Positions 36,368 through 44,518 of a DNA stretch of 64,000 nt are shown piece after piece. The notes under the pieces are model-generated. The model had not been told where the DNA came from. It did no database searches and saw only the letters and a list, made by a program, of their open reading frames with translations. Every line of letters begins with the position of its first letter. Position 1 is the first letter of the stretch. This DNA is from Acidobacteriaceae bacterium KBS 83 (GTDB lineage: Bacteria; Acidobacteriota; Terriglobia; Terriglobales; Acidobacteriaceae). Position numbers and translations under genes: made by a program. Where the stretch lies: contig KB906740.1 of NCBI GenBank assembly GCA_000381585.1, positions 124,001 through 188,000 of the forward strand, in the 5' to 3' direction.

Positions 36368-37519
36368 TCATTGCGGATGCAGGCCCAGCGCCTCGGCGAT
36401 TGCCGGAATGGGCGCAGCTTTTCCCTCCGTCTTGGTCACCACGGCGAAGCTTCCTTGATAATCCCACACCGCCCACCCGATACCTTGCTCCTCCAGTGCC
36501 GTCCGCGTGTCACGCAGCCACGCTGCCCGCATCGCCGGATCGGCATATGGCTCATGCACGCCGAACTCGCCGCAGTACACCGGCACATGATGCTGCGCGG
36601 CCCACTTGCCCGCGAAGCTCAGCTCCGCTCGAATCCGCGCCGCATCCCAGCAGTTCAATCCATATGTGTCGATCCAATGCTGGTCCACAAGGCTCTGTTC
36701 CTGCGCAACCGCCGTCGCAATATTCTCCGGCGACGACGGGTACGGCACGCGCCGCAGGGGCCGCACCGCTGCCATCGTCCACATAGCGCCCTGGTGCGTG
36801 AAGGGAAAAGGCTCGTAGTCATGGAAGGTATAAATCACATTCGCATCCGCCACCGGCTCGAGCGCAAGCAGATCAGTGAGCCCGGAGTAGTGCCCCGCCG
36901 TCGCAATGATGGTGTGGCTCGGCGCAGCCAGCCGGATCGCGGCAATCGCGCGCGTCTGGACGGTCTTCCACTGCTCAGCGTCTGCAAACTCCGGTTCGTT
37001 CAATACCTCGAAGAACACGCGCTCCGGATCGCTCTGCACATAATGACCGGCAAGCGCGCTCCATAGTCCGCAGAATCGAGTCACCGCGGCATCGTCCGTG
37101 CGAAGCCGGCGCTTGAACTCATCAGAAGGGTGCACGTCGACAATGACACGCAGCCCGTCTTTCAGCATCGTGTTCACCGCCGTATCCAGCTCGGCGACGA
37201 AGTTCATATTCAGGCCGTTCGGTGGCGCCCCACGCAGAAGTTCATCCCCGTCGATGCTGAGGCGCACATGGTCAAATCCCATCGCGTGTATCAATGCAAT
37301 GTCATCGGCCGTCGTGAAGCTGCGCAGCCGGGCAGGGGAGTAATCGCTCGCCTGCGCAAACCACATGCTCGCGTTCACACCGCGATGCAGCAGTTGCGCC
37401 CGCCTCGCGGCGGTAGCAGCGATATCTGAAGCGGCCGGATTGGCCGGCTGCGGCTGGGCCGCTACGGAAGAACTGAGAACAGAACAGCAGAAGAGAAGAC
37501 AGGCGAGAAGCGTTCGCAT
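36368..37519 (-). CDS. Exported glycoside hydrolase family 5 (cellulase-like)
   Basis: The 383-aa protein has a signal peptide (1-21, ending VAA-Q). The GH5 (beta/alpha)8 barrel shows HRGVNASMWF near 46, HVRLSIDGDELL near 84, the acid/base glutamate in FFEVLNEPEF (Glu175), FHDYEPFPFTHQG near 232 and the nucleophile in VYCGEFGVH (Glu318). Both catalytic residues are present, so it is probably active on beta-linked glucans or mannans; the subfamily cannot be fixed by eye. The ATG at 37519 follows AAGGAAGG. It diverges from the Fur-family gene at 37607. Confidence 0.9.
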   Translation of the reverse strand: MRTLLACLLFCCSVLSSSVAAQPQPANPAASDIAATAARRAQLLHRGVNASMWFAQASDYSPARLRSFTTADDIALIHAMGFDHVRLSIDGDELLRGAPPNGLNMNFVAELDTAVNTMLKDGLRVIVDVHPSDEFKRRLRTDDAAVTRFCGLWSALAGHYVQSDPERVFFEVLNEPEFADAEQWKTVQTRAIAAIRLAAPSHTIIATAGHYSGLTDLLALEPVADANVIYTFHDYEPFPFTHQGAMWTMAAVRPLRRVPYPSSPENIATAVAQEQSLVDQHWIDTYGLNCWDAARIRAELSFAGKWAAQHHVPVYCGEFGVHEPYADPAMRAAWLRDTRTALEEQGIGWAVWDYQGSFAVVTKTEGKAAPIPAIAEALGLHPQ

Positions 37520-37587
37520 GGCGCCTTCCTTTGTACAACAGCGTAGCGGGCGAAAATTCTGCATACTGGAAATGGAACTGAAACCCC

Positions 37588-37598
37588 GTTATCATTAA
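37588..37598 (+). promoter_or_regulatory. Putative Zur/Fur-family box before the regulator gene
   Basis: GTTATCATTAA lies 8 bp upstream of the regulator's start codon and recurs exactly at 38039-38049 before the ZIP transporter gene. With the following C it reads GTTA-TCAT-TAAC, an inverted repeat. The AT-rich, short-symmetric style is like Fur-family operators, so autoregulation is likely. Confidence 0.55.
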
Positions 37599-37606
37599 CT
37601 GTTCCC

Positions 37607-38029
37607 ATGGCACAACCCATTCCACGCAATACACGCCAGAAACAAGCCATCCGCGACGCCTTCATCGAAGCCGATCGCCCGCTTTCCCCTGAGGAAGCGC
37701 TCGCCGCCGCGCAGCACCACTACGGGACACTCGGCATCGCAACGGTCTACCGCAACATCAAGTCGTTGCTGGCCGAGGGCTGGCTGGAACCTGTCTCGCT
37801 GCCTGGTCAGGCTACCCGCTACGAGGTCGCCGGCAAGGCCCACCATCATCATTTCCACTGCCGCAAATGTGGACGCATGTACGAGCTCGGGGACTGCGCC
37901 GGCACCGTGCTGCCCCGGCCGCCTCGCGGCTTTCGCGTTGCCGGCCACGAGTTGCTGCTCTATGGCAACTGCGCGCGCTGCTTAAATATGCCGGCGTCCG
38001 CGAAGACCCGGGCTCGCATCAGAAGATAA
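37607..38029 (+). CDS. Fur-family metal-responsive repressor, probably Zur
   Basis: The 140-aa regulator has a winged-helix DNA-binding half (IRDAFIEADRPLSPEEAL, then the recognition segment GIATVYRNIKSLLAEGWLE) and a metal-binding half: the His-rich HHHHFHC with CRKC, and a second CxxC as CARC near the end, for structural zinc. It is 73 bp upstream of a ZIP-family metal transporter, and the two genes share an 11-bp upstream element. Zinc sensing (Zur) is therefore the best guess; iron or manganese are alternatives. No clear SD precedes the ATG; the shared box sits almost at the start, so the mRNA leader may be minimal. Confidence 0.85.
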   Translation: MAQPIPRNTRQKQAIRDAFIEADRPLSPEEALAAAQHHYGTLGIATVYRNIKSLLAEGWLEPVSLPGQATRYEVAGKAHHHHFHCRKCGRMYELGDCAGTVLPRPPRGFRVAGHELLLYGNCARCLNMPASAKTRARIRR

Positions 38030-38049
38030 CGAGTATTTGTTATCATTAA
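38025..38049 (+). promoter_or_regulatory. Putative Zur/Fur-family box before the ZIP transporter
   Basis: GTTATCATTAA at 38039-38049 is identical to the element before the Fur-family gene. Here it is preceded by GATAAC (38025-38030), so GATAAC-N8-GTTATC forms an extra inverted repeat that overlaps the regulator's stop codon. It is placed to control the ZIP gene at 38103. Confidence 0.55.
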
Positions 38050-38102
38050 TGCATATCCGGCCCCCGGGCAGTTGACTCGAGCACAGCAAGGTTTGTCTCC
38101 CC

Positions 38103-38888
38103 ATGCACATCGCCATCCTCGCCCACGCACTGCTGGCCGTCTTCGCTCTGGAAGCGATCGCCATGCTGGCGGCATGGCTCCTGCGCCGGCGTGACTATGC
38201 GCTGAGCGCATTCCTGCCCTATCTCGTCAGCGTGGCCACCGGCCTTCTGCTCGCCACCGCGCTGCTCCATCTGCTGCCGGAAGCCATCGCCAGCCTCGGC
38301 AACACGCCGCGCGTCTGGTATCTGCTGGCAGGCGGTATCCTCGGCCTCTTCTGTGTGGAGCAGATCGTTGCCGCCATCGTGCACGCCGGCGACGCGAGCG
38401 TTGTCCACGTCCATGCACACGGCCACTCCCATCACCATTCACTTCGCCCCGCGAACCTGATCGTCGCCAGCAGCCTGCATAGCTTTCTCGACGGCGTCTC
38501 CGTGGCGGCAGCCTTCGCGGCGGGCCCGCGCGTTGGCTGGATCACTGCCCTCGCCATCAGCCTCCATGAGGTGCCGCATCGCGTCGGCGACTTTGCTGTG
38601 CTGCTGCACGCAGGCTACTCGGCCACCAGTGCGCTGCGCATGGCGGTGCTGCCGTCACTCGGTGCACTGCTTGGCGTGGCGCTGGTCGCCGCCTTCGGAG
38701 CCAGCGGCGGCACCGCCGTGTATTGGCTCTTGCCCATCAGCGCCGCAAGCTTCCTCTACATTGCCTGCGTCAACCTGCTGCCGGAGCTGCGTCACCAGCA
38801 CAGCCGCCTCGCAGTCGCGCTGCAGATGCTCTGCCTCTTTGGTGGCGCGGCGCTTGTCGCCCTGGTTGCCGGTCTGCCCGGCGCATAA
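38103..38888 (+). CDS. ZIP-family divalent metal transporter
   Basis: The 261-aa integral membrane protein probably imports zinc or a related metal. It has about eight helices and a cytosolic His-rich loop (VHVHAHGHSHHH, residues 101-112). The TM4/TM5 metal site reads HSFLDGVSVAAAF (His126, Asp130) and HEVPHRVGDFAVLLHAG (His155, His159, Asp163), the ZIP signature. It is downstream of a Fur-type regulator with a shared upstream box, so it is probably derepressed when metal is scarce. It is followed by an inverted-repeat spacer and a convergent TonB receptor gene. Confidence 0.88.
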   Translation: MHIAILAHALLAVFALEAIAMLAAWLLRRRDYALSAFLPYLVSVATGLLLATALLHLLPEAIASLGNTPRVWYLLAGGILGLFCVEQIVAAIVHAGDASVVHVHAHGHSHHHSLRPANLIVASSLHSFLDGVSVAAAFAAGPRVGWITALAISLHEVPHRVGDFAVLLHAGYSATSALRMAVLPSLGALLGVALVAAFGASGGTAVYWLLPISAASFLYIACVNLLPELRHQHSRLAVALQMLCLFGGAALVALVAGLPGA

Positions 38889-38897
38889 CTGTCTAAA

Positions 38898-39006
38898 CCG
38901 TTTTCACAAAAGGTGTAGGCGCCGAAACAACACCGGACGCAGCTTTTCCGTAAAGAAAAGATGCTCTTCGTGGCTGCTCGTCCGGACACAGTATTTGTGA
39001 AAACGG
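38898..39006. repeat. Inverted repeat bounding a 109-bp convergent spacer
   Basis: CCGTTTTCACAAA (38898-38910) is the exact reverse complement of TTTGTGAAAACGG (38994-39006). A smaller CTTTTC/GAAAAG hairpin (38943-38960) lies inside. It sits between the convergent ZIP and TonB-receptor genes, so it may be a bidirectional terminator with an odd, long loop or a small MITE-like remnant. Confidence 0.5.
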
Positions 39007-39007
39007 A

Positions 39008-41647
39008 CTAGAAGACGAAATCCAGCTGCCCTGTAAATGTTCGCGGCGAAACGAAATGCGTCCCGCTGAACGTCGACAGGAAGTTATACAGCGCGTACTT
39101 GTTCGTCAGGTTCACCACGGACAGGCTGGCATTCACCTTGTAACGCTCCGTGTGAAACACATTGTCATACCCGCCCAGCGCGTCGAAGGTGTTGCGCGGC
39201 TGAACCCGCGGCGGATTCTTGTCGTCATTCTCCGTACCGGGCGCCGGTATCTTCACCAGCGGTGAGCTAAGCTGGTTGCCCGCGCAGCTCGTCAGGGGAT
39301 TGGCAATCGTCGCCCGCTGGCTGCCGCAGGTCAGGTTGATCTGCGCCTGCTGGTCCGGTGTCAGCCCGGTAAGGTTCACCTGAAAGTCTGGTGAGTTGGG
39401 ATCCGCAGTCGGCGAGAAGGGAACCGCGCCCGCCACCAGGCCGCTCTCATATGTCCAGTTCAAGCCAAGCATCGGCCCGTGGCCTGGTGACTTCTGATAT
39501 TGCAGGTGCGTCGTCTGCTGAAATGCCTGATCGTGATCGATGCGGAACGGCGCGCCGGAGAGCGGCGTGTTCGGATTGTTGAAGAGAATGCCGCCCACCT
39601 CAGGTCCGAAGAAGCGCGAGCGCGAGTGGCCCAGCACCGCATACGCGGAGACGCCATGCGTCGGCGTCAGGTTCGCGCGAATCGCGTACCCGTCGATCTT
39701 CGACTTGTTCCATTGAATCGGAAACGACAGCGGCGTGTTGAACAGCACATCGAAGTCATAGTCGCGATCGGTGAACTTCCAGAAGTAGTCGCCCTGCACC
39801 GCGATCTTCGGCCCAATCGCCTGCTCAAACCCTGCTGAAAAGTGATTGCGCTTGCCCGGCTTCAGTGTTGCATCGCCGAAGGCGCCGAAGACATTCTGTG
39901 CCAGCCCGCCGGCGCCCGTGGAACTCGAGAGGATCAGGTTCTCGTTGTACGGCGTCATGAAGAACTTGCCATACGAGCCGCGAAGCACTGTGTTCGTCTT
40001 CGCAACCCGATAGGACGCGCCTGCTCGCGGTTCCACCATCGACCGGCTGGAGATGCCGTTGTAATTGTCCGCGCGCACGCCGCCGCTCAGCAGCCATCCG
40101 CCAAAGTGCAGCTCGTCTTCGACGTACACCGCCTCCTGCTTGATGTCCGTGGTCCCGTTGAAGTTGAACAGCTTGCCGCCCCGGCTCAGGTCATAGGGCA
40201 GCAGGCTGGGCAAAAAGGCCGGGTTCGCTGTCTGGCCCGCACCCGTGCAGTGCAGATCGCTCGGATCCGTCACCGGCGCGCCGCTCGCGTCGAGGCACGG
40301 CGAGTTGTACGCGGGATCGGTAATGCCTAGCCGGAAGCTCTCCGCCAGCGGCGTCTGGTAAATGTTCGCGCCGATCTTCAGGCTCTGGATGCCCTTCGAA
40401 TACGTGAAATCTTCTTTCACGCCGAAGTTGGTCAGGCGCCGCGCCTGCTGCAGCGTAGCCGGCTGGTCATCAAACAGATTCGCCGAAGGGTAGTAGTGCA
40501 CCTGGTCCTGACGAAGATAGATATTCGAGCTCAGCAGCGACGCGGGATTGAAGATGTGGGTCCAGAACACGGAGGTGTTAAAGCTCTTGATCTCGTTGCG
40601 CTGGTCCTGTCCCAGGGCCTCCTGATCGTACTGGTTCGGCGTCTGCGCCCAGGAGCGTGAGGCGCTCAGGTCCAGGTGAATCATGTTCGTCGGATTCGCA
40701 TTCCAGTCCAGGCGTTCGAACACGTTCTCGACGTTGCCGTGATCGTGCATCGGGGAAAACTCCGGCGTATCGAGAAATCGCCCGCTGTTCACAACGTCCA
40801 GGCTGGTGAACGATCCGTATCGCGACGAGCCGATGCCCAGGCTTCCGCCTCCGGTTCCGCTGCCGAACGAACCGTACCCACCATACACATCGCCGTGCAG
40901 CTTATGACCCAAACCGGATTTCGTCGTCGTCTGCACCACCAGGCTTGCCTTGTCGCCGTACTCCGCCGGCGGCACGCCGCTGATCACATTCATGCTGTCG
41001 ATCGAGCTCAGCGCAATCTGGTTGGAGAACTGGCGGCTCTGCTGATCGCTGATCGGCTGGCCATCCACGCTGAACTGCACATCCTGGTGCTCGCCTTGCG
41101 CATGGATAAGGCCGTCGGAGTCCTGCGCAATGCCCGGAGTCGCCAGTGTGATCAGCGAGCTCACCGCCGCGTTGGTGTTTTGATAGGGGATCTGTTTCAA
41201 CGCGCTCGAGTCCAGGTCCGTGTGCGCCGTCGGCGTATTGGTGACGACGTCCTCCGCCCCGGCCGTCACGTTCACCGTAGTGGCAACGCCTGAGAGAACA
41301 AGCTGCAGCTTCAGGTTCACCGGAACCGCGCTGCGCAGGCTCACATCAGTGGTATCGGTCGAAAAGCCGGTCGCGGCAACCGCCATGTGATAGCTGCCAA
41401 ACGGAACATTGCTGAAGGCGAAGCTACCCGTTGCATCGGACTTCATCGAGTGGTCAAAGCCGCTGACGGTATTCTGCATTGTCACCAGGGCGCCGGGAAT
41501 TGCATTCCCCTGCGGATCGGTGACCTGTCCTGTTACAGAACCGGTGAGAGTCTGAGCGCTGGCTGCTGCCGCCATCACGACGAATGGCGCAGACGCCAGA
41601 AGAATGCGGCTGAGCCGCCTGGAATGGAAAAACAAATGGAATAACAC
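39008..41647 (-). CDS. TonB-dependent outer-membrane receptor, Oar-like
   Basis: The protein has 879 aa. A signal peptide (ending ASA-Q) is followed by a carboxypeptidase-regulatory-like domain (residues ~30-105: GSVTGQVTDPQGNAIPGALVTMQN…), a plug domain (~115-235, including QFSVDGQPISDQQSRQFSN) and a beta-barrel ending in a C-terminal aromatic (TGQLDFVF). This arrangement is the Oar-like receptor type abundant in Acidobacteriota. It imports a large substrate using TonB energy. GTG at 41647 (AGAGG five bases ahead) is preferred; a TTG at 41668 has no SD. A small His/Cys membrane protein and a GH78 enzyme are upstream on the same strand, suggesting an oligosaccharide or metal-linked substrate. 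Confidence 0.88.
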   Translation of the reverse strand: MLFHLFFHSRRLSRILLASAPFVVMAAAASAQTLTGSVTGQVTDPQGNAIPGALVTMQNTVSGFDHSMKSDATGSFAFSNVPFGSYHMAVAATGFSTDTTDVSLRSAVPVNLKLQLVLSGVATTVNVTAGAEDVVTNTPTAHTDLDSSALKQIPYQNTNAAVSSLITLATPGIAQDSDGLIHAQGEHQDVQFSVDGQPISDQQSRQFSNQIALSSIDSMNVISGVPPAEYGDKASLVVQTTTKSGLGHKLHGDVYGGYGSFGSGTGGGSLGIGSSRYGSFTSLDVVNSGRFLDTPEFSPMHDHGNVENVFERLDWNANPTNMIHLDLSASRSWAQTPNQYDQEALGQDQRNEIKSFNTSVFWTHIFNPASLLSSNIYLRQDQVHYYPSANLFDDQPATLQQARRLTNFGVKEDFTYSKGIQSLKIGANIYQTPLAESFRLGITDPAYNSPCLDASGAPVTDPSDLHCTGAGQTANPAFLPSLLPYDLSRGGKLFNFNGTTDIKQEAVYVEDELHFGGWLLSGGVRADNYNGISSRSMVEPRAGASYRVAKTNTVLRGSYGKFFMTPYNENLILSSSTGAGGLAQNVFGAFGDATLKPGKRNHFSAGFEQAIGPKIAVQGDYFWKFTDRDYDFDVLFNTPLSFPIQWNKSKIDGYAIRANLTPTHGVSAYAVLGHSRSRFFGPEVGGILFNNPNTPLSGAPFRIDHDQAFQQTTHLQYQKSPGHGPMLGLNWTYESGLVAGAVPFSPTADPNSPDFQVNLTGLTPDQQAQINLTCGSQRATIANPLTSCAGNQLSSPLVKIPAPGTENDDKNPPRVQPRNTFDALGGYDNVFHTERYKVNASLSVVNLTNKYALYNFLSTFSGTHFVSPRTFTGQLDFVF

Positions 41648-41716
41648 AGGAGCCTCTGGATCAAACAAGATCGGATATCTGCAGAAAAGGAAGATGGACT
41701 ACGTGCAGAGAGGGAT

Positions 41717-42007
41717 CTAGAGGCAGGTGGGCGGAGGACGGGTGGTCGGAACTGCAACGAGGCTGGGCGAACCGCGGCTAGGCGCGGCGACCAGCAACAC
41801 CATCAGCGTCTGCATCATGACAATCAGGCTGACGACGCTTGCGATGGATGGCGTGGTATGGCCAAGAGTGCAGATCTGGCAATTTTCCGCGTGCCCGCTG
41901 ACACCGTGATGATGCATCAGCAACGCAGAGAAGAAGACCACAATCGAAACGCACAGAACCACCGCAAGGACGCGAAGTGCGAACGATTTGCGGTCTCTAT
42001 AGGGCAT
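41717..42007 (-). CDS. Small His/Cys membrane protein upstream of the TonB receptor
   Basis: The protein has 96 aa with two hydrophobic segments: ALRVLAVVLCVSIVVFFSAL (about residues 9-28) and a second near 57-78. Between them is HHHGVSGHAENCQICTLGH, with several His and a CxxC. Its layout recalls the DUF2946-type small proteins often encoded beside TonB receptors or copper genes, but I cannot confirm membership. The ATG at 42007 is chosen over a TTG at 42046; no good SD is seen for either. It lies 70 bp before the TonB receptor on the same strand. A metal-binding or receptor-accessory role is a guess. Confidence 0.6.
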   Translation of the reverse strand: MPYRDRKSFALRVLAVVLCVSIVVFFSALLMHHHGVSGHAENCQICTLGHTTPSIASVVSLIVMMQTLMVLLVAAPSRGSPSLVAVPTTRPPPTCL

Positions 42008-42133
42008 ATGTTCTGGTCGATGACGGATATTGCTACTGATATTCAAGTATCAGTGGTTCTCAAAGCGAAGTCAATGCGCAGAACGGGTTACCAGGTTACG
42101 GCTCGGCACGAAGCCGCGTCTTTTATTGGACGT

Positions 42134-44518
42134 TTATTGGACGTCCAAAGTCGTCTTTCCGGCACCCAGCGGATGCGATTGTCCGTGCCATTCCAACGTG
42201 CCCTGAAGCCCCGCCGGCAGGGTAATCTCGGCATGCAGACCGCGCGCAGTCACCTCGTATTGAGCCACGATCTCCCCCACCGGGTGCGGATACCGGACCG
42301 TGAGTCTTTTCAGGTCGCTGAGCTCCGGGGCGATCCTCACGGTACGAAATCCCGGACTTCCGGGATGAATCCCACCGACGATCGTCAACAGATCGTAGGT
42401 CGGATGCGCGCTCCAGGCGTGCGAGTCGGAGCGCGAATCGCCCGGCATCTCCGGCCAGGTGCTGAAGCCCATCGGCAGTAGCGCCCGCCACGGTCCCAGT
42501 GACGCCAGATACAAGTTGCCCTGCCCGGCATGCTCCAGCGCACGCGCCAGGTAGAAGCGAAAGTAGTAGCTGGCCGGCATCAGATGCTCCCGGCCATTCA
42601 CTATGCGCTGCAGCACCTCCTGCTGTTCAGCTTTCGGAATCACGTCATACAGCACGCCCAGAATGTTCGCGTGTTCGCTGAAGAGGGTGCGCTCTGGAGT
42701 ATCCGCCAGCAACTTCCGTTCCGGCGACCAGCAGCGCTGGTATACCCCCTCACGCATCTGCTTCAGGCTCGATTCATACGATGTGCCGATCGACGGGTTG
42801 CCGAGCGCGTGCTCAAGCTCCGACGCATCCTTGAGCGCGCCCATCATCTCCAGCGACAACACGCACGACTCCCCATGCGCATCCACTGTCGGAATCTTCT
42901 GGTCCTCCGGCACCCAGTCCACAAAGTTCCAGTAAGGCGGCTCGCGCAGCAATCCATCCGTATCGAGATAGCCGAAGAACCACGCCAGCACATCGCGCGT
43001 GCCCTGCAGATTCTCTTTCACGATCTGCGCATCCGGACGGTACCAGTACAGATCGTCCAGCATTCCGATCCAGTAAAGCGAGAACGGTGGAATGATCTGT
43101 TCCAGGCTGCTTGGATAGCGGCTCTGCGTCAGCCCCTCGGGGATATGCGAGTTGGCAAACGCCTCGATCGCCTGCCGCGCCAGCCGGTCATCGCCCGTCA
43201 CCGCATACGAGATCAGCGCTTGAATACGCGTATCGCCGATGTACTGCAATTGCTCGTAGTACGGGGTATCCATATAGGTCTCATGTGCGTCAAGCCGCGC
43301 CGTGCGCCAGCCAATCTCCCAGATCTTCTGCAACGCAGCATCGCCTGAATCGAACTGTGCCCGCTGCTCGAACGGATACGTGCTCTCGTTCGCCCGCAGA
43401 CTCTCGAGCGTCAGCCCCTCATCGCCGGTAGTGATGTCGATCTGCATGTACCGCCACGTCCGCCACCACAGCGGCTCGAAGGTGTGTTGCTCTCCGCCAT
43501 CCGGCAGCACGATGTCGTGAAAGCCGATCGCATGCCGGCCCGCAATGTCATCGCGGTTGCCCTTCTTCAACTGCGCATCGTAGAGCGCCTCGGCATAGGT
43601 AAGCACGACCCGTGAGCCGCGCCCGCCGCTGAATGTCAGCTCGGGGTACGCCGTCGTCAGCGTCTTGCGATCGAGCATCACCTCCGTCGTCGTATGCGGC
43701 GGAATGCTCAACGCCTTCGCAGGAAATCCCGAGCCTGCCGAGCCTGCTAATCCCGCGCGGACGATTGCCCCCGGGCTCTCTTCCTTGTGCGTCATCTGCG
43801 GCAGCGGGTCCGGCATCAGCCGCCAGGGAATGTTCGCGACATCGTGCTCCGACGCTGCCTCGCCCGCGTGCGCGCCATCATCCTCGCGCATCGCCGTACG
43901 CGCCTGCAACCAGTGCAGGGAAGTGTCCCCCGGCTCCTGCCAATTCCAGCCATATTTCGCCGCGTCCAGCTTTTCGCCCGGGCTCGCCGCCATGTAATCG
44001 CCGCGTCCATCGTTCGCGCGCGGCACCACGCTGATCCCTGGCTCCTCCGCCACCGACCAGCTCGCATTCGTATCTGCCGCCGTCTCCTGCTCCGTATCCC
44101 CCTGCACCAGAAACGCCGTCCGGTCCGACATCTGCGCAATTGCCGAGTAGATCCCGGAGTTCCACACCGTCGCCGTCAGCAGATTTGTGCCTTCATGGAG
44201 CGCCGGCGCCAGGTCGAACGTCTCGTAGCGCCAGTGCGGCAGGTCGCTCGCCGCCGGTCCCGCGCCGATGCGCTGCCTATTCACGTAGAAGAGAAATCTG
44301 CGATCGCCGCTCACATGCACGATGAAATGCTGCGGCACGGCCGTCAGCTCGATCGACTTGCGAAAGTGCAGCACAATCGGCTCGCGCAGCGGTGCCGTCG
44401 GATGCGAGATCCATATCGCCGACCATTCTCCGCGCGGTTCCTCGGCATGGACAAAGGCTGCTGCGGCAAACAAAGCGATAGCAATCAGGCGCCGGAGCGA
44501 CGGCTTGCGGATCGGCAA
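42134..44518 (-). CDS. Exported alpha-L-rhamnosidase-like glycoside hydrolase (GH78)
   Basis: The protein has about 794 aa. A signal peptide (LRRLIAIALFAAAAFVHA) is followed by two N-terminal beta domains (WSAIWISHPTAPLREP, then VNRQRIGAGPA near 85), and the (alpha/alpha)6 catalytic barrel from about residue 400 with TYMDTPYYEQLQYIGDTRIQ near 425 and DSHAWSAHPTYDLL near 700, as in GH78. The Asp/Glu of the DTPYYEQLQYIGD block are candidate catalytic residues. The frame opens with a TTG at 44581; TTG at 44518 is preferred for its GGGGGG-type SD and a normal signal peptide, though neither is certain. It is upstream of the small membrane protein and TonB receptor. Confidence 0.83.
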   Translation of the reverse strand: MPIRKPSLRRLIAIALFAAAAFVHAEEPRGEWSAIWISHPTAPLREPIVLHFRKSIELTAVPQHFIVHVSGDRRFLFYVNRQRIGAGPAASDLPHWRYETFDLAPALHEGTNLLTATVWNSGIYSAIAQMSDRTAFLVQGDTEQETAADTNASWSVAEEPGISVVPRANDGRGDYMAASPGEKLDAAKYGWNWQEPGDTSLHWLQARTAMREDDGAHAGEAASEHDVANIPWRLMPDPLPQMTHKEESPGAIVRAGLAGSAGSGFPAKALSIPPHTTTEVMLDRKTLTTAYPELTFSGGRGSRVVLTYAEALYDAQLKKGNRDDIAGRHAIGFHDIVLPDGGEQHTFEPLWWRTWRYMQIDITTGDEGLTLESLRANESTYPFEQRAQFDSGDAALQKIWEIGWRTARLDAHETYMDTPYYEQLQYIGDTRIQALISYAVTGDDRLARQAIEAFANSHIPEGLTQSRYPSSLEQIIPPFSLYWIGMLDDLYWYRPDAQIVKENLQGTRDVLAWFFGYLDTDGLLREPPYWNFVDWVPEDQKIPTVDAHGESCVLSLEMMGALKDASELEHALGNPSIGTSYESSLKQMREGVYQRCWSPERKLLADTPERTLFSEHANILGVLYDVIPKAEQQEVLQRIVNGREHLMPASYYFRFYLARALEHAGQGNLYLASLGPWRALLPMGFSTWPEMPGDSRSDSHAWSAHPTYDLLTIVGGIHPGSPGFRTVRIAPELSDLKRLTVRYPHPVGEIVAQYEVTARGLHAEITLPAGLQGTLEWHGQSHPLGAGKTTLDVQ

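Follow-up and report, generated by a model that had tools for sequence, protein, structure and literature searches.

The closest described counterparts of the locus analysed here come from cyanobacteria, Francisella novicida, Caulobacter crescentus and the actinobacteria Streptomyces and Mycobacterium. The nearest printed operator that we found is the cyanobacterial Zur box, NTNANAATGATNATCATTNTNAN, which originates from RegPrecise and is quoted in the consulted excerpts of PMC9337993; its halves stand 1 bp apart. In F. novicida, whose zur/FTN_0880/zupT cluster appears in excerpts of PMC5786701, a ZIP-family importer and zur itself are under Zur control, ZupT is proposed to serve as primary importer when zinc is scarce, and an additional znuACB system lies outside Zur control. 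In C. crescentus (excerpts of PMC4176598), TonB-dependent zinc receptors are Zur-repressed, the sites are of the kind GATGTTATATCATAACAAT, and DUF2946 is found among the zur-dependent genes, two DUF2946 genes having gone down in the zur mutant. In their consulted sections, the Zur review PMC6103462 treats Actinobacteria, Firmicutes, Proteobacteria and Cyanobacteria, and PMC3087516 names Zur and Acidobacteria, with a Zur-site search that covered Actinobacteria, Clostridia and Proteobacteria; a term search of the retrieved texts of PMC6103462 and PMC8000910 gave no match to 'Acidobacteri'. Among the matches listed in the open-licence literature, from which most subscription journals are absent, no title dealt with a Zur regulon of Acidobacteriota. 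The kind of circuit that we propose below is known, and a lineage-specific operator sequence was not found described for Acidobacteriota in the literature searched.

The locus lies in the window, by which we mean the whole 64-kb stretch of DNA that was analysed, and to judge from its sequence it is in all likelihood an autoregulated zinc-uptake module made up of a Zur protein, 20-bp inverted-repeat operators and a ZIP importer. The initial annotation had seen in the combination of regulator, box and metal importer a Zur regulon, which is still the best-supported reading. What was computed is the sites themselves, how rare they are, how they recur at related promoters and how the genes are linked. 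The features are as follows.

37567..37595, plus strand: promoter-like sequence TGGAAA-17-TATCAT, overlapping the zur operator
37577..37596, plus strand: candidate zur operator ACTGAAACCCCGTTATCATT, right half strong and left half weak, overlapping the promoter-like -10 TATCAT
37588..37598, plus strand: box 1, first copy of GTTATCATTAA, 8 bp before the ATG (37607) of the Fur-family regulator
37607..38029, plus strand: Fur-family regulator of 140 aa, read as Zur (Pfam FUR, 63.4 bits; cut-off 23.1)
38028..38047, plus strand: candidate ZIP operator AACGAGTATTTGTTATCATT, with a wider dyad GATAAC-N8-GTTATC spanning 38025-38044
38039..38049, plus strand: box 2, second copy of GTTATCATTAA, 53 bp before the ATG (38103) of the ZIP gene
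38103..38888, plus strand: ZIP-family metal transporter of 261 aa, likely a zinc importer (Pfam Zip, 140.9 bits; cut-off 35.1)
39008..41668, minus strand: TonB-dependent-receptor-like outer-membrane protein, candidate zinc receptor (Pfam CarboxypepD_reg, OMP_b-brl_4 and Plug)
41717..42007, minus strand: DUF2946-like protein of 96 aa, encoded ahead of the receptor and carrying an HAENCQIC motif (15.1 bits with Pfam DUF2946, below the cut-off of 23.7)
42035..42054, minus strand: possible third operator ACTGATACTTGAATATCAGT, a weak candidate, 27 bp before the ATG at 42007

To the extent that the excerpts describe them, the F. novicida cluster resembles this arrangement in placing both a ZIP-family importer and zur under Zur control, and differs from it in gene order and in the presence of znuACB. 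The likeness to C. crescentus lies in the TonB-dependent receptor and the DUF2946-type protein; the C. crescentus sites are different in sequence, and its ABC-2 transporter stands where the ZIP protein stands here.

The initial annotation had singled out GTTATCATTAA as a box occurring exactly twice, 8 bp before the regulator start and 54 bp before the ZIP start, with a GATAAC/GTTATC inverted repeat overlapping the second copy. Both strands of the 6,250,814-bp genome hold exactly two copies, both at this locus, and by coordinates only the second distance needs amending, to 53 bp. The inverted repeat is present (38025-38030 and 38039-38044), and its left arm shares bases with the TAA stop codon of the regulator gene, an overlap that may explain part of the conservation of this arm. 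With no mismatch allowed, GATAAY-N8-RTTATC has a single genome-wide match, box 2. Both boxes are kept in place, in a spacer that has otherwise diverged, in the one same-genus genome drawn (G001, the same contig as L003; this genome is incomplete, at 85%).

The two boxes could in principle be alike by chance, and relaxed versions of GTTATCATTAA are indeed no commoner than the control (seven matches against 16 genome-wide at one mismatch). We regard this explanation as extremely improbable: window composition predicts 0.31 (order-1) or 0.08 (order-2) copies per genome, the two copies found lie at adjacent promoters, the boxes are kept in the sister genome, and related sites recur in the family. 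The reversed-pattern control occurs once in the same genome. The expectation that variants of the 11-mer would stand upstream of other zinc genes was not borne out at one mismatch in this genome. The one-mismatch copies were dropped as further sites, being un-enriched over the control, and no zinc-homeostasis gene was recognised beside the five extra matches. One of these five, GTTATCATGAA at position 1501 of L034, lies six bases 5' of the ATG of a small CxxC ORF and may be a chance match, since its tail doubles as a ribosome-binding site.

GTTATCATTAA is very probably one half, the right one, of an imperfect 20-bp inverted repeat of the approximate form AWTGMKAAY-NN-RTTMKCAWT, which is met again at zinc-type promoters of Acidobacteriaceae and of some other Acidobacteriota; the right half reads RTTATCAWT in the window. 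The 11-mer first noted as the box is conserved and rare, and it covers only one half of the candidate operator. The left arm of the zur operator, taken alone, falls only within the top 1.4-4% of positions, and that of the ZIP operator within the top 0.13-0.16%. With matrices trained on other genera, the zur and ZIP sites come first and second in the 64-kb window, an outcome that none of 200 column-shuffled matrices gave, although the right arm of the four-genus matrix had been picked for likeness to the window sites and is to that degree circular; its left arm had not. The Fur box of E. coli is GATAATGATAATCATTATC; the present sites share GATAAT-type hexamers with it, the reversed 11-mer being TTAATGATAAC, and differ from it in spacing, gene context and probable metal.

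Because TATCAT lies inside both boxes, and TGGAAA-17-TATCAT is the only promoter-like site in 37400-39100 (one found; mean 0.3 in shuffles), the shared box might be read as nothing but the -10 element of two promoters, with no operator present. This is very unlikely, as the identity extends over 11 bp including both flanks, is unique in 6.25 Mb and exceeds a -10, and as the left arm and dyad of the ZIP site recur in other genera. A -10 and an operator can also coexist, as they do in Synechococcus, where the -10 elements of znuA and znuC are overlapped by the Zur box (excerpts of PMC9337993). The candidate operators resemble this cyanobacterial box, as quoted there, in the half-site AATGAT/ATCATT, the inverted repeat, the -10 overlap and the zinc-import neighbours; unlike it, they have outer AWTGA/TCAWT arms separated by an AAY-NN-RTT core. 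The cyanobacterial-type core as given in the excerpt, AATGATNATCATT, is absent at both window sites, which hold the ATCATT half only, so that the half is common to the two and the spacing is not. The suggestion that the box matches no familiar Zur consensus and may be specific to Acidobacteria accordingly survives in part: related 20-bp sites recur in the phylum, but the ATCATT half is shared with the cyanobacterial box as quoted.

The sequence of the regulator alone is ambiguous as to its identity, and gene context decides for Zur. Seven NCBIfam models of the Fur/PerR/Irr kind matched the protein, all far below cut-off and with PerR/Fur favoured; there was no Zur model among the seven. Its best PDB match is Campylobacter Fur, followed by Zur of Mycobacterium (2o03, 50.5 bits by sequence) and Streptomyces (3mwm, 46.7 bits), while a profile of the clade scores the top Fur at 81.9 bits and the two actinobacterial Zur structures at 78.1 and 77.2 bits. 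Across 33 aligned sequences, E73, H79-H82, H84, C85, C88, C97, H114, C122 and C125 are invariant. These residues include both CxxC pairs of the Cys4 structural zinc site, C85/C88 and C122/C125; according to excerpts of PMC6103462, such pairs occur also in Fur-family members that sense other metals, and the known Zur sensory sites are N2OS, with a Cys among the ligands. In an alignment read by eye, the sensory Cys of actinobacterial Zur (C79 of ScZur, and its counterpart in MtZur) falls on an Ala of our regulator, and the extra invariant C97 is a possible S-donating replacement ligand. The protein is like Streptomyces and Mycobacterium Zur in its Fur fold and Cys4 site, and unlike them in the Ala at the ScZur C79 position and in the additional C97.

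We best read the regulator as Zur because genes of its clade adjoin ZnuA-type, ZIP or ZigA-like genes in several phyla. Pfam was run on nine neighbour proteins from seven loci among 31 relatives' loci, plus one from L043. ZnuA-type binding-protein genes adjoin or diverge from the orthologue in L022, L024, L025, L026 and L028, and further ZnuA-type neighbours occur in L131 and L137. A ZIP gene adjoins it in L004, a neighbour in L132 has ZnuC as its best model (153 bits; cut-off 306), and in another genus of the same family (L043/G032) a CobW-type GTPase beside the orthologue reaches 576.7 bits with the ZigA model (cut-off 600). Many other orthologue loci have no zinc neighbour in the stretch examined.

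These comparisons also bear on the choice of metal. A Mur- or Fur-like regulator that senses manganese or iron, with a ZIP protein importing that metal, would agree with the iron Fur as best solved-structure match and with the MntC model in second place for three of the seven binding proteins (L024, L028 and L137); moreover, proteins of the PF01297 and ZIP families are able to transport Mn or Fe as well, and ZupT-type ZIP proteins are broad in specificity (excerpts of PMC5786701). Against this, a zinc model leads for all seven binding proteins (each below cut-off), the ZigA-like protein beside the G032 orthologue would be a zinc chaperone, and the clade profile scores actinobacterial Zur nearly as high as the top Fur. 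We consider a metal other than zinc unlikely, and keep to the reading of the regulator as Zur.

Two observations on the orthologue loci concern their arrangement and labelling. In six Acidobacteria MAGs (L005, L009, L012, L013, L014 and L017), zur follows an ArsR-type regulator gene, an assignment for which Pfam was run on L012 alone. Three of them (L009, L012 and L017) also encode a small His-rich protein, CGHEAVPHGxHxDYL, ahead of zur; in L012 this His-rich protein has no Pfam match. The arrangement suggests a joint zinc-homeostasis operon. The record of L004 is titled Verrucomicrobia, yet its upstream DNA is the same as that of L090, which comes from a genome placed in the family of the window; the title or the binning may be wrong.

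The ZIP protein scores below the NCBIfam ZupT cut-off (31.8 bits against 252) and has no PDB sequence match at E 0.001. ZnuA was not found in this 99.3%-complete genome, which makes the ZIP protein the likely inner-membrane importer; the znuABC promoters named as a check by the initial annotation could accordingly be looked at in relatives only. Among 398 family genomes drawn, ZIP (E <= 1e-60) is present in 20, zur (E <= 1e-25) in 48 and both in 10; zur thus occurs in 10 of 20 genomes with ZIP and in 38 of 378 others (Fisher P 1.9e-5, uncorrected for relatedness). In six of the ten (G000, G001, G217, G265, G351 and G407), the two matches lie <100 bp apart.

Dyads like AWTGANAAYNNRTTATCAWT stand at the zur locus of G102, G476, G435 and three genomes of one further genus. 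These same sites had supplied the pattern, so that the genome-wide counts are the independent part of the search. With <=2 mismatches, six of 11 chosen genomes (G001, G476, G435, G467, G687 and G443) have a single site, which is at the zur locus. In G102 the best of three sites is at zur, in G164 one of two is there, in G140 one of three lies just downstream of zur, and in G634 the single site is away from zur; of the five sites in the genome of the window, two are at zur and ZIP. In G435 the site occupies the zur-znuA gap, an order equivalent to zur-box-ZIP in the window, and in three G467-type genomes it lies 0.6-0.85 kb upstream of zur, not directly before it. The sole zero-mismatch site in the genome of the window is at C2:880030-880049 (G000, L133), with no recognisable zinc gene nearby.

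The RTTATC form is found in the genus of the window, in G102 and in some distant Acidobacteriota; other family members have TTCGCAA- or TTGCA-like inner forms, and outer AWTG...CAWT and inner AA...TT are common to the GAGAAC/TTCGCAA and GCAAA/TTTGC forms. Genus g35 (L091, L101, L102, L103, L106, L107 and L108) carries a conserved 20-bp imperfect dyad, GTTGAGACTATCTTCGCAAC, before zur, with one-base variants in L099, L109 and L111, and this may be the same operator skeleton in a diverged form. At six family ZIP loci, L152-L157, no RTTATC-type site was seen with up to 3 mismatches; looser sites stand at three of these ZIP genes (in L193, L194 and L195). The prediction that the box would recur at other zinc promoters held in the phylum for related sites before zinc-type genes, but not for an RTTATC-type site at L152-L157. 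A one-mismatch half-site, sought in the 250 bp upstream of 69 orthologues, was set aside, having been found six times against 1.9 expected and just as often (six) with the reversed control; enrichment was confined to the last 80 bp (five against 0.5 expected), and the interval -240 to -160 holds none. RTTATCAWT occurs in nine of 71 upstream regions (0.18 expected), a count on which we do not rely, the motif having been partly defined from the same sequences; L027, L032, L042 and L090 were left out, and five of 76 regions were removed as near-identical.

Matrix scans in the family extended these counts; their training was partly circular, the first sites having been picked by eye for the window half-site and later ones by a matrix that held the window's sites. 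With the tested genome outside training, the top 20-mer lay at a zur, ZIP or DUF2946/receptor promoter in 7/7 zinc-cluster loci, compared with 0.6 on average and at most 4 among 200 shuffled matrices, in a set chosen for zur near a ZIP or DUF2946-like gene and with the control's promoter intervals set after the matches had been seen. Four of the genomes (G407, G334, G124 and G412) were wholly outside training. A wider test took 31 family loci out of 53 zur matches listed, a selection outside which L113 and the window's own genus lay, and retained 24 after L090 (a duplicate of L004) and the near-identical L097, L103, L106, L108, L109 and L111 had been skipped. Using a matrix without the tested zur-promoter sites, 13 of the 24 had their top 20-mer in the 200 bp upstream of zur, and 11 did so when the two sites of the window's genome also left training. 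Column-shuffled matrices averaged 2.8, with 8 as the highest count in 300, and this control is fairer than a binomial test, whose expectation of 1.44 takes no account of AT-rich promoters and whose P is too small because sites are common to congeners (L091, L101 and L107 have one and the same 20-mer).

At the remaining 11 loci the top site lay elsewhere than upstream of zur: it stood 225 bp (L098) or 9 bp (L100) upstream of an adjacent ZIP gene, and in L043 before the ZigA-like gene, a site that was in training and was not scored as a success. Several zur loci, such as L112, showed nothing convincing by matrix scan. At the three G3E/COG0523 matches in this genome, the best family-matrix scores were 10.6 (L082), 19.0 (L083) and 5.3 (L084). 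The L083 site falls within the coding sequence of a HypF-like gene that precedes HypA- and HypB-like genes, and on account of that position it was rejected as an operator and taken as chance; its score exceeds those of the zur and ZIP sites, which indicates that the false-positive rate of the family matrix is not small.

Homologues of the TonB-dependent-receptor-like protein, at 42-45% identity, occur near zur in five of seven fetched stretches. Matches to the DUF2946-like protein, mostly weak, were found in 35 of the 398 family genomes, eight of which hold zur; in five of these eight (G000, G067, G124, G265 and G334) the two lie within 7 kb, the nearby zur match of G124 being the more distant of two (43% identity). 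Because such homologues group together with zur and ZIP elsewhere in the Acidobacteriaceae, the receptor unit beside the ZIP gene may be part of the same uptake system, as its outer-membrane component. The contig of the sister genome (L158, G001:C125), compared with window positions 39209-42137, lacks the unit save for the last 66 receptor residues, and a deletion of the receptor/DUF2946 unit in G001 seems likely, with the genome itself 85% complete. The candidate third operator ranks third with the four-genus matrix (0.1 expected per 64-kb surrogate) and fifth with a wider matrix (1.9 expected); with the family matrix trained without this genome it is not among the eight best sites.

We entertain a more specific reading, in which the Acidobacteriota have their own Zur clade, with no sensory Cys at the known position and an invariant extra Cys, and share a 20-bp AWTG-MK-AAY-NN-RTT-MK-CAWT operator skeleton, its inner letters drifting from genus to genus; in Acidobacteriaceae this operator would control a complete zinc route from the outer to the inner membrane (TonB receptor, DUF2946-like helper and ZIP) that functions without ZnuABC. 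The third site falling outside the top 8 led us to lower its probability, and we hold this reading tentatively, at a little short of an even chance.

The autoregulated zinc-uptake module would work as follows; that its metal is zinc, that control is by repression and that the regulator binds DNA directly is what we infer. When cytoplasmic zinc is sufficient, a zinc-loaded Zur dimer would bind the 20-bp repeat over the zur -10 and before the ZIP gene, and transcription of both genes would be blocked. As zinc falls, Zur would release the sites and the ZIP protein would import zinc. The neighbouring TonB-dependent receptor and its DUF2946-like helper may aid zinc entry, and zinc-loaded Zur may repress the receptor too.

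Acidobacteriota are a phylum common in soils. If the proposed circuit is correct, its operator would offer a searchable signature for zinc-responsive genes in these bacteria, and the locus would point to a ZIP and TonB-receptor route in place of ZnuABC. The related genomes would then allow the co-evolution of a Fur-family protein and its operator to be read.
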